64,000 nt of DNA from an uncultured Solirubrobacterales bacterium (GTDB taxonomy: Bacteria; Actinomycetota; Thermoleophilia; Solirubrobacterales; JACPNS01), in the NCBI GenBank assembly GCA_937128795.1, contig CAKZMQ010000001.1, positions 186,001 through 250,000 on the forward strand, written 5' to 3'. A program made the translations under genes and the position numbers. Under the pieces are notes generated by a model. It did no database searches. It was given only the letters and a program-made list of their open reading frames with translations, and was not told the DNA's origin. The stretch's first letter is position 1, and each line of letters begins with the position of its first letter. Positions 6,923-10,167 of the stretch are shown piece by piece.

Positions 6923-6940
6923 TGGTACGAAGACGTACCA
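6923..6940. promoter_or_regulatory. TetR operator O1
   Basis: TGGTACGAAGACGTACCA is an inverted repeat TGGTAC-N6-GTACCA in the P450/TetR intergenic region. It has the same half-sites and spacer as O2, with centres 31 bp (about three helical turns) apart. Confidence 0.65.
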
Positions 6941-6950
6941 AACTTGCGGA

Positions 6951-6974
6951 AGATGGTACACACATGTACCATCT
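6951..6974. promoter_or_regulatory. TetR operator O2
   Basis: AGATGGTACA-CACA-TGTACCATCT is a perfect 10-bp inverted repeat whose core TGGTAC-N6-GTACCA matches O1. It ends 11 bp before the chosen TetR start (6986), fitting autorepression. It contains the in-frame ATG 6953, which argues against that upstream start. Confidence 0.7.
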
Positions 6975-6985
6975 TTGTCAAGCAG

Positions 6986-7618
6986 ATGTCGTCCGCCCCC
7001 TCTCACACCGCGCAACAAATCCCCTCCGTCGGCTTACTCGATCAAGAAGTCGCGCGTGACCGCCTGCTGCTTGCGATGGCAGAATCGATCGTCGACCGGG
7101 GCCTCGACCAGACCACCGTCGCTGACATCGTCCGCATCGCTCGAGTGTCGCGGCGCACTTTTTATGAGGAGTTTTCCGACCGCAGCGATTGTTTTCTCGA
7201 GCTCTGCGATCGCTCGACCCTTACCGCGCGAGACTTGATCGAGCGAGCGGCCGATCCCGCATTGCCCTGGCGCGAGCAAGCAGTTCATGCGATCGACGCC
7301 TATTTCGCGTTCATGTCCGCCGAGCCGGCCCTCACACGCAGCTTTCTGTTCGAGATCTTCGGGATGGGTGAAGCCGGAGGCCGAAAGTTCCGCGAGATCC
7401 AGCACCGATTTTCCGAGCAGCTGCTCGCGATCGCCCGTCGAATTCGAGCTGACGAGCCCGAGATCAACGAACTTTCGTACGCGATGACCTCTGCGGTCGT
7501 CTCGGGGATCTGTGAATTGGTGATGCTTTCGCTCGAGGACGACCAGCGAGTATCCACCGAAGAGGCGCGCGACGCCGCTCTGCAGCTGGTGTTTGACGTA
7601 CTCACCGCACCGCGCTGA
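6986..7618 (+). CDS. TetR/AcrR-family transcriptional regulator
   Basis: About 210 residues from ATG 6986 (MSSAPSH). The ORF-track start at 6560 lies inside the P450, and ATG 6953 lies within an operator. The N-terminal HTH is typical: AMAESIVDRGLDQTTVADIVRIARVSRRTFYEEFSDRSD (T-hxxIh-x-x-A-x-VSRRTFYxxF). The rest is the all-helical ligand-binding/dimerisation domain (AVHAIDAYFAF, then FLFEIFGMGEAG). Divergent from the P450, with two TGGTAC-N6-GTACCA operators between them. Probably a ligand-responsive repressor of the P450 and of itself. Confidence 0.9.
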   Translation: MSSAPSHTAQQIPSVGLLDQEVARDRLLLAMAESIVDRGLDQTTVADIVRIARVSRRTFYEEFSDRSDCFLELCDRSTLTARDLIERAADPALPWREQAVHAIDAYFAFMSAEPALTRSFLFEIFGMGEAGGRKFREIQHRFSEQLLAIARRIRADEPEINELSYAMTSAVVSGICELVMLSLEDDQRVSTEEARDAALQLVFDVLTAPR

Positions 7619-7672
7619 GCCGGTCGACAGCACACGTGAATAGGCCAGATGTCCATATCCGGATGCGCCTGT

Positions 7673-7701
7673 TTGCCAGCATCCCGAATACTCGTTATAC
7701 T
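7673..7701 (+). promoter_or_regulatory. sigma70-type promoter of the small RNA/leader
   Basis: TTGCCA (7673-7678), 17-nt spacer, TATACT (7696-7701). Each hexamer is one mismatch from consensus. Predicted start near 7708. Confidence 0.65.
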
Positions 7702-7707
7702 GGCTGA

Positions 7708-7888
7708 ACAGCCAGCCAATGCCCGCTGGTCCCTTCAGGTCTCGTTTCCTCCTAGAACAGATCTGACGCAAAAACACCCCGACTCAAGGAGTCCAATTCC
7801 CGGCCCCCGGGAAGGGCTCCGTCTCCGCACAGTGAGTCGAGTACATGGCCAGGTGGCCGCCGCTCAGTCGGCCACCTGGCTTTTTTTT
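7708..7888 (+). ncRNA. candidate structured small RNA or attenuated leader, about 180 nt
   Basis: The unit is bounded by a near-consensus promoter and an intrinsic terminator. Internal hairpins are GACTC-AAG-GAGTC (7781-7793) and TTCCCGG-CCC-CCGGGAA (7797-7813), then the terminator. A later GAGTC (about 7834) could compete for the first GACTC. A 15-codon ORF (ATG 7719, TGA 7764-7766) starts 11 nt into the transcript but has no Shine-Dalgarno. The downstream PafBC-like gene starts 155 nt after the terminator. This could be a free sRNA or a transcription attenuator for that gene. I do not recognise a known RNA family (not tmRNA, SRP or RNase P). It occupies most of the 425-nt gap 7619-8043. Confidence 0.55.
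7848..7888 (+). terminator. strong intrinsic terminator
   Basis: GCCAGGTGGCCG (7848-7859) pairs with CGGCCACCTGGC (7869-7880), a 12-bp GC-rich stem with a 9-nt loop, followed directly by eight T (7881-7888). This is the most canonical Rho-independent terminator in the window. Confidence 0.9.
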
Positions 7889-8043
7889 GCCGTGAACCGT
7901 TTCCGCACCGGACACTTGATCGACTGGCCGGCAGCAGTTGCGCCCGGTCGCTCGTTCAAAACCCCGCAATTTGCGTGCAGGCGGAAACGCCTTTCGCGGG
8001 AAGGCGCAATTCGCAGCCGGTCCTTGCGTATGCTGCATCGCGA

Positions 8044-10167
8044 GTGGCAAAAGACACCGAAAAACTGATCCGACAGCTCTCGCTGATCTCCTTTCTGATG
8101 GCAAAGCGTCGCCCGGTGACCGCGCTCGAGATCAAGCGCGACGTCGAGGGCTACAGCGAGATGAACGACGACGCCTTCGCGCGTCGTTTTTACGCGGACC
8201 GCGCCGAGCTGGAGGCGCTCGGCATCGAATTGCGCGTCGATCGCGCCGTCGACGGCTTCTACGAGGCGGAGAACTACTCACTACCGCCCGAAAACTTCTA
8301 CCTGCCGAGCGTGCAGTTCACCGATCGTGAGCTCGCTTCGCTAACGACGGCACTGAAGATGCTGGATGGCCAGTTCGCCTACGCCGAGCCGCTGCGGCTG
8401 GCGCTGCAACAGCTCACCTGGGGTCGGCCTTCGCCGTTCTCGGCACCGGACGAGATGTCGATCCACGTCGCCGTGGGTCCTGACGTCGAAGGCCGCGAAC
8501 TTTCGCAGCGTCTGAGCAAGATCGAGAATGCGATTTTCCGTCGCAAGACGATCATCTTCGAATATTTCACGATCGGACGAGGCTCGACCGAGAAGCGCAA
8601 GGTCGACCCTTTCCACCTGCTCTATCGCGGCGGCGAGTTCTACATGATTGGCCACGCCCACGAGCGTGAAGAGCAACGCATGTTCAAGCTCTCGCGGATC
8701 CGCGGCAAGATCAGCTACGCGAGCAAGGCCGAGCATGATTTTCCTCCGCCTGAGGACTTCGATCCGCGCGAATACGCGACGATGGCCGAGTGGCAGTTCG
8801 GGCAGCAGTCGCAAACGGCTTCGATCTGGATCAGTGAGCGCATCGCATGGCTCGTCGAGCGCCACTTTTCCAAGGCCGGCAGGATCCGCACCCCCAAGCG
8901 CGGCGAGGCAGTGCCCGGCAAGGGCGTGATCTTCGAGACCGAATTCACCGACACCGCCCCGCTGATCTCATGGGTGCTGGGCCACGGTCCGCGTGCACGC
9001 GTGCTCGAACCCTCCTCCGTCGCGAACGACGTCGCCAAGCGGGTCGCTCGGATAGCTCGCCAGCACACCGGCGAATTCGAGATAGCACCGAAGATCGCGC
9101 GCAGGCGGGGGCCGAGCTCCAGTGTGTCCAACGATGCCAACGAGACTTCGATCAAACCCGAGCGCTTCGCACGTTTGATCACGCTCGCCGGGATCCTGAT
9201 CGGCGCGACGCACACTGGCGCGACCGTTTCGATGTCGAAGCTCGCCACCGACTTGAACGTCTCGCGAGAAGAGATCGAGGAAGACATCGAGGTGCTCAAC
9301 GTCGTCAATTTTGGCGGTGGCAGCTACGTGTTGTTCGCGCAGATCGAAGATGACGAGATCTCCGTCGACAGCGAGCCCTACAGCGACAACTTTGCTCGCC
9401 CCGCGCGCCTGCTCCCGCTGGAGGCCAAGGCCTTGATCGCCGCGATCGATCTGCTCGGTGAGTACTTCCCGAACGACTCGTTGCTGAGCGCCCGCAAGAA
9501 AGTTGTGACCGCGCTCGGCGAGGACCCGGCCACCAGCGGCCTGCAGATCGCCGCTACCCAGGTGAACGACTCGGAGATCGCGACCGCGATTTCTCAGGCG
9601 ATCCAGGGCAACCTGTTGGTGCAGATCGAGCACTACAAGGAAGACCAGGACACCTTCACCGAGCGCACGATCGAGCCGTATTCACTGATGAACGGTCGCG
9701 AGGGGTGGTACGTACACACCTGGGATCTTTCGCGCGAAGCGCCACGCGATTTTCGCCTCGACCGCATCAAGAGCATCGAGGTGCAGAACGAGACGTTCAA
9801 GCCGCGCGACGGCATGGTTCCTGACCTCGACGGCTGGCCGCGCACGGGCACCGTCGGCGCTTCGACGGTTGCGAAGATCTGGATCGATCCCGAACACGCG
9901 CCGCGCGCCCGCGAGGAGTACGAGCCGTCGCTGGAGCTGAAGGACGGAGCGATCCTGATCGACCTTCCGTATGGCGGAGTGAACTGGCTGGTGACCGAGG
10001 TCTTCAAGTTCGCCGGCGACGCCGTTGTGCTCGAGCCAGCCGACGCGCGCGAGGCGGTGCGCGATGCCGCAAAGGCGCTCAAGGCAGAGATTGCCGGTGG
10101 CGGTGTCAAGGCCGCCGCCGCGAAGCCGTCGTCTGGCTCCAAGCGCGAGCCCGTCACCACCGGCTAG
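8044..10167 (+). CDS. tandem WYL-domain transcriptional regulator (fused PafB-PafC type)
   Basis: Start taken at GTG 8044 (VAKDTEKLIRQLSLISFL), giving about 707 residues; the ORF-track start at 7975 adds a non-homologous leader. Two consecutive PafB/PafC-like halves are visible. The first has a winged helix (KDTEKLIRQLSLISFLM..RPVTALEIKRDV) and a WYL domain with GEFYMIGHA and FKLSRIRG, then a WCX region. The second has a winged helix (PERFARLITLAGILIGA..VSMSKLATDLNVSREEI) and a WYL domain with GWYVHTWD and FRLDRIKS. Such fusions bind ssDNA-type signals and activate RecA-independent DNA-damage genes in actinobacteria. Proteasome genes are not nearby, so orthology to PafBC is inferred from architecture. 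Confidence 0.75.
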   Translation: MAKDTEKLIRQLSLISFLMAKRRPVTALEIKRDVEGYSEMNDDAFARRFYADRAELEALGIELRVDRAVDGFYEAENYSLPPENFYLPSVQFTDRELASLTTALKMLDGQFAYAEPLRLALQQLTWGRPSPFSAPDEMSIHVAVGPDVEGRELSQRLSKIENAIFRRKTIIFEYFTIGRGSTEKRKVDPFHLLYRGGEFYMIGHAHEREEQRMFKLSRIRGKISYASKAEHDFPPPEDFDPREYATMAEWQFGQQSQTASIWISERIAWLVERHFSKAGRIRTPKRGEAVPGKGVIFETEFTDTAPLISWVLGHGPRARVLEPSSVANDVAKRVARIARQHTGEFEIAPKIARRRGPSSSVSNDANETSIKPERFARLITLAGILIGATHTGATVSMSKLATDLNVSREEIEEDIEVLNVVNFGGGSYVLFAQIEDDEISVDSEPYSDNFARPARLLPLEAKALIAAIDLLGEYFPNDSLLSARKKVVTALGEDPATSGLQIAATQVNDSEIATAISQAIQGNLLVQIEHYKEDQDTFTERTIEPYSLMNGREGWYVHTWDLSREAPRDFRLDRIKSIEVQNETFKPRDGMVPDLDGWPRTGTVGASTVAKIWIDPEHAPRAREEYEPSLELKDGAILIDLPYGGVNWLVTEVFKFAGDAVVLEPADAREAVRDAAKALKAEIAGGGVKAAAAKPSSGSKREPVTTG

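Follow-up and report, generated by a model that had tools for sequence, protein, structure and literature searches.

A conserved small RNA of narrow range between tetR and pafBC in a Solirubrobacterales lineage, probably an antisense regulator with C-rich loops

The gap between two regulator genes in the genome of an uncultured Solirubrobacterales bacterium raises the question of whether it carries a gene of its own, or merely the tail of the gene upstream or the leader of the gene downstream. The original prediction was an unassigned structured RNA, either a new sRNA or an attenuator of a PafBC-like DNA-damage regulator. The window is the whole stretch of DNA that was analysed, 64 kb in length, and the locus within it comprises:

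6987 to 7618, forward strand: gene of a TetR-family regulator (PF00440), upstream of the RNA
7707 to 7888, forward strand: small RNA gene (RNA body) of about 182 nt, from conservation and fold; its orthologues measure 150-151 nt
7847 to 7888, forward strand: intrinsic terminator H4 with eight T (hairpin 7847-7881, T-tract 7881-7888)
8044 to 10167, forward strand: gene of a fused PafB-PafC-like WYL regulator (WYL, WCX and PafC HTH domains), downstream of the RNA

The species of the window (G000) was compared with four congeners (G001-G004), making five genomes in all, and a DNA search for the element took in 61 genomes. The element was found in two of the four congeners, G001 and G004, where the gene order is that of the window: a P450 gene on the minus strand, tetR, the RNA and pafBC. 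In G002 and G003, pafBC is present on intact contigs with another gene upstream, without tetR and without the RNA. Identity over aligned columns is 89-92% for the RNA, compared with 58-64% for the spacer between tetR and the RNA, 63-83% for tetR DNA, 69-85% for the gap that follows the terminator and 81-89% for pafBC DNA; the TetR orthologues share 46-49% of their amino acids. No other part of the locus is as well conserved as the predicted RNA. From the start region through three hairpins to the terminator, it is kept as a unit in the three species. The proposal of an unassigned structured RNA is borne out, as sequence, structure, place and terminator are all conserved and there is no Rfam match.

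The terminator, which had been described as a textbook example with eight T, has a stem of 12-13 perfect pairs. It is the sole hairpin on either strand of the 64 kb to combine at least 7 stem pairs free of mismatches with at least 6 T in the following 8 bases, all other hairpins of the window with such a T-tract containing a mismatch. The statement that this terminator stands out is therefore right, in the sense that no other perfect-stem match occurs in 64 kb; in a looser scan with 5 pairs, terminator-like sites occur at the chance rate (17 versus 15.7).

At the other end of the unit, three elements surround the presumed transcription start:

7673 to 7678, forward strand: -35-like TTGCCA, 17 bp from the -10 box (pattern; doubtful)
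7696 to 7701, forward strand: -10 box TATACT (pattern; conserved in three genomes, being TATATT in G001 and G004)
7701 to 7716, forward strand: palindrome CTGGCTGAACAGCCAG over the presumed start, invariant from 7702 in all three genomes

The predicted promoter TTGCCA-17-TATACT is indeed present at 7673-7701, and its -10 half is conserved. Its -35 hexamer, however, is not conserved across the three genomes, and the combined pattern is no more frequent than chance (2 seen in 20 kb, 2.8 expected). The -10 box (TATAYT) and the next 33 bases contain a single variable base across the three genomes; likewise, only one base differs from the -10 box through H1 (TATAYTGGCTGAACAGCCAGCCAATGCCCGCTGGTCCCT), while the spacer just upstream barely aligns. 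By sequence this would be a free-standing unit, with a conserved -10 box and terminator, but not a conserved -35. RNA polymerase would start near 7707-7708 and stop at the T-tract. The palindrome CTGGCTGAACAGCCAG is a possible operator.

Two candidate controls of this start region were considered and rejected. RecA-NDp promoters carry a TTGTCR-type -26 element at a fixed distance from TANNNT. No element of this type was found at 7600-7720 in G000, and there are only partial look-alikes (TGACA, TTGACG) in G001 and G004; a PafBC-dependent (DNA-damage) promoter of the RNA gene was rejected because the element is absent in G000. Regulation of the RNA by the neighbouring TetR was rejected because GGTAC palindromes are confined to the gap between P450 and tetR. 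In that gap, between the two divergent genes, the GGTAC-based palindromes TGGTACGAAGACGTACCA and AAGATGGTACACACATGTACCATCTT (window 6924-6941 and 6951-6976) have equivalents in G001 and G004, and are probably operators of this TetR.

As the RNA begins about 90 nt past the stop of tetR and does not occur in the genomes that lack tetR (G002 and G003), it might be regarded as the 3' untranslated region of tetR, so that any small RNA would be a processing product, perhaps a trans-acting one. We consider this unlikely. The -10 box and the invariant start region are conserved beside an otherwise unalignable spacer, the RNA is far better conserved than tetR, and three further conserved C-rich hairpins would be superfluous for a mere terminator.

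A leader of pafBC is the other obvious reading. One further element is needed to judge it:

8029 to 8034, forward strand: TATGCT, the probable -10 box of pafBC, 9 nt before the GTG

The RNA lies on the pafBC strand at the same place in three species, and the T-tract is separated from the conserved GTG (8044) by 155 nt, precisely the predicted distance. It resembles transcription attenuators with an intrinsic terminator, in that a promoter, a structured leader and a U-tract terminator stand upstream of a gene, and conditional readthrough in an attenuator or riboswitch leader would induce the DNA-damage regulator. It differs from them in that a conserved promoter element belonging to pafBC itself follows the terminator. 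A TANNNT box is found 8-9 nt before the pafBC GTG in all five congeners (TATGCT in G000, TAAGGT in G001 and G004, TATCCT in G002 and G003), two of which lack the RNA entirely. This is the spacing of leaderless transcripts, and the pafBC mRNA is thus probably leaderless, starting beyond the terminator. We also see no conserved antiterminator pairing. Moreover, PafBC protein levels remain constant under DNA stress in mycobacteria (PMC6789036), and the protein is activated by a single-stranded DNA ligand (PMC11804915), so that, at least in mycobacteria, there is no need for transcriptional attenuation. The attenuator half of the original prediction does not survive this comparison and is very unlikely; pafBC is probably independent of the RNA and transcribed from its own promoter past the terminator. 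Reading the locus as a likely sRNA gene does away with an attractive, though probably mistaken, connection to DNA-damage control.

Proximity to pafBC might alternatively mean that a protein is the target of the RNA. One such partner could be PafBC, encoded next door, through its Sm-like WYL domains: these are similar to Hfq/Sm folds, and their ligand had at one time been proposed to be RNA (PMC6789036). The activating ligand was later shown to be single-stranded DNA (PMC11804915), two congeners keep pafBC without the RNA, and the RNA loops are antisense-like in appearance, all of which make a protein partner highly improbable.

Two other observations concern pafBC itself. PafB and PafC form a single fused protein here (window 8044-10167), and the usual pupylation/proteasome neighbourhood is absent in the stretch seen. 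Upstream of the gene, at window 7965-7975, lies a near-palindrome of the CGCAATTTGCG type, a possible pafBC operator; GCAATTTGCG is exact in four of the five congeners, with one mismatch in G002, and so persists in congeners without the RNA.

With pafBC and tetR set aside, the RNA itself comes into focus. Upstream of the terminator, its predicted fold contains:

7711 to 7730, forward strand: hairpin H1, GCCAGC/GCUGGU, with loop CAAUGCCC, followed by unpaired CCCU
7735 to 7766, forward strand: hairpin H2, whose apical segment GUUUCCUCCUAGAAC is a loop of anti-Shine-Dalgarno type
7780 to 7839, forward strand: hairpin H3, outer stem CGACUCA/UGAGUCG, preceded by the unpaired C-rich linker ACACCCC
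7787 to 7818 (boundaries approximate), forward strand: insertion of about 32 nt in H3, in this species only, a perfect stem extension (comparison and fold)

Where two compact hairpins had been expected there are three, plus the terminator, and this fold is common to all three RNAs. The minimum free energy of -80.1 kcal/mol (z = -6.65) is 25 kcal/mol more stable than that of shuffles, and folding z ranges from -5.6 to -6.7 in all three species. Without the terminator, the remaining RNA has z = -3.9 to -5.5 against shuffles in the three species. Pairs are kept at 97-100% in stems H1, H2 and H4, and the H2 stem survives a two-sided change of one pair, from U-A to G-U, as well as two one-sided changes. 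H3, one arm of which is misplaced for G000 in the MAFFT alignment, has been lengthened and not broken, because the approximately 32 extra nucleotides form a perfect stem of their own. In a formal covariation test 182 of 500 shuffles do as well, which is not significant with three sequences. Support for the structure comes from stability and conservation, while real covariation evidence is thin (the one two-sided change among three sequences).

A further element, which had been noted as a possible 15-codon ORF, overlaps H1 and H2:

7719 to 7766, forward strand: 15-codon ORF MPAGPFRSRFLLEQI, from ATG 7719 to a TGA ending at 7766, judged not to be a gene

The ORF exists, and its first 12 codons are nearly identical in the three species, with one residue differing from the orthologues, as might be expected if ATG 7719 opened a short translated leader or a small protein. 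Beyond these codons, however, small insertions throw the frame off, so that the ORF ends after 15 codons here and runs into unrelated longer tails in G001 and G004. The frames are thus out of step between species, no Shine-Dalgarno sequence precedes ATG 7719, and this ATG sits in the H1 loop. It is extremely unlikely that the conserved unit serves to be translated.

How widely the RNA occurs was assessed with a covariance model, as the original prediction had suggested for Thermoleophilia. The search confirmed conserved orthologues, but in congeners alone, and covariation does not rise above that of shuffles. The model has no match in G002 or G003, and in the family, 201 genomes of the order and 399 of the class it found, beyond the three congeners, only matches to the terminator stem (G185 and G345); weak distant relatives could be missed in the order and class searches because these used strict filters. 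Searching the GTDB genomes for the core CCAATGCCCGCTGGTCCC returned 14 contigs, of which only the known orthologue contig (L020) scored highly with the model. A mobile or plasmid origin was rejected, as there is no plasmid match and an 18-base core pattern was found in no viral contig. We conclude that the predicted RNA represents a real, conserved and previously unlisted small-RNA family of narrow range.

What might such an RNA do? C makes up 45-53% of its unpaired bases and G 5-11%, compared with 35-36% and 21-25% in the RNA as a whole. The conserved C-rich unpaired segments contain C runs of at most 3-4, and the exposed C-rich, G-poor loops and linkers are CAAUGCCC, CCCU, UUUCCUCCUA, ACACCCC and CUCCGCAC. 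By base-pairing in trans, such loops and linkers would cover the G-rich ribosome-binding sites of one or several mRNAs and keep them from being translated. The reading we favour, and hold to be reasonably probable, is an independent gene for a trans-acting antisense sRNA of about 150-180 nt with exposed C-rich loops. Actinobacteria are without a recognised Hfq (PMC6789036), and an unspecific literature search brought up no sRNA work in Thermoleophilia; a conserved sRNA with a readable candidate target is useful for these reasons.

Among single targets, the strongest candidate is the Shine-Dalgarno sequence of an internal start in lysC, from which the regulatory beta subunit of aspartate kinase would be made. 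The corresponding segment of the RNA is:

7742 to 7753, forward strand: UCGUUUCCUCCU, the perfect complement of an internal lysC ribosome-binding site (G000:C1:93105-93116, outside the window)

This gene was singled out because the H2 loop GUUUCCUCCUAGAAC is an anti-Shine-Dalgarno sequence. The 10-base complement of that loop, AGGAGGAAAC, has one site besides the RNA gene in the 2.4 Mb of G000, and that site is the Shine-Dalgarno sequence in front of an in-frame ATG within lysC. In G000, RNA and lysC would pair perfectly over 12 nt at -23.1 kcal/mol, whereas the best of 374 sampled genes reaches -18.3, the sample being the gene starts in 450 kb of the 2.4 Mb genome. All three species with the RNA (G000, G001 and G004) have the site, whereas it is lacking from the two congeners without the RNA (G002 and G003) and from nine other genomes of the order. 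No other 30-nt stretch of lysC is as well conserved in the three species as the 30 nt before the internal start, with 29 of 30 positions identical, falling to 19 of 30 once G003 is added.

Three points weigh against reading too much into this match. C-rich loops fit any Shine-Dalgarno sequence, a chance match is likeliest at a canonical Shine-Dalgarno sequence, and parts of the RNA have exact 12-nt complements elsewhere by chance. The three RNA-bearing species are probably one clade, and the RNA and the lysC site may therefore share ancestry and not function. As the site lies in the coding frame, its conservation may also have other reasons. Exact complements of the linker (CGGGGTGTTT) and of the H3 loop (CTGTGCGGAG) gave no conserved start-site matches, and the start regions of pafBC, tetR and P450 pair poorly with the RNA.

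The internal start deserves mention in its own right. The region G000:C1:93105-93628 (L043) has an internal in-frame lysC start with a canonical Shine-Dalgarno, suggesting alpha and beta aspartate kinases, and in-frame overlapping kinases of this kind are known, for instance, from Corynebacterium glutamicum (PMC8690038). The part of lysC downstream of the internal ATG is the regulatory region. G002 has a TTG and a weaker site at this position.

We tentatively suggest, as a possibility on the doubtful side, that the RNA might pair with the internal Shine-Dalgarno and so set the ratio of regulatory beta to catalytic alpha subunits of aspartate kinase, leaving the main start untouched. If true, an sRNA acting on an internal translation start would alter the subunit balance of a feedback-regulated enzyme encoded as a gene within a gene.

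Exposed C-rich loops are also the hallmark by which the antisense RNA proposed here can be compared with known systems. Rfam models, run over the whole window and with permissive settings over the region, returned nothing except tRNAs and matches below threshold. The C-rich loops and a weak alignment to sX13 (RF02232), the best Rfam alignment of the RNA (19.9 bits, E 0.15, below the gathering score of 50), could be taken to mean that the RNA is a divergent member of 6C, sX13 or another known family. We give this very little credence, as no family reaches its gathering score here and the 6C model (gathering score 47 bits) has no match at E 0.1 in G000 or the two orthologue genomes, nor at E 10 at 7600-8100. 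The RNA belongs to neither family.

G003, one of the congeners without the RNA of the present locus, has a 6C-like RNA below threshold (G003:C4:7289-7358, L032; 36.3 bits against a cut-off of 47), whose loop is CCCCCC and whose tail is rich in T.

The differences from these families are nonetheless accompanied by a likeness in design. 6C/B11 (RF01066) shares the phylum Actinobacteria, and its stable hairpins expose C runs that pair with ribosome-binding sites (PMC10470900; PMC9569102). It has about 75 positions, two hairpins and loops of about six C, whereas the RNA described here has 150-182 nt, four hairpins and the loops CAAUGCCC and CCUCCU. sX13, from Xanthomonas, belongs to another phylum and another locus (it adjoins polA), but likewise consists of stable hairpins with C-rich loops, which repress mRNAs carrying G-rich motifs near the start independently of Hfq (PMC3771888). 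Staphylococcal RNAs with UCCC loops, RNAIII among them, have no relation in sequence or locus and no Rfam match to the present RNA, but aim similar C-rich loops at ribosome-binding sites (PMC3771888). From its C-rich, G-poor unpaired bases, the RNA most likely works in the manner of 6C/B11 or sX13.
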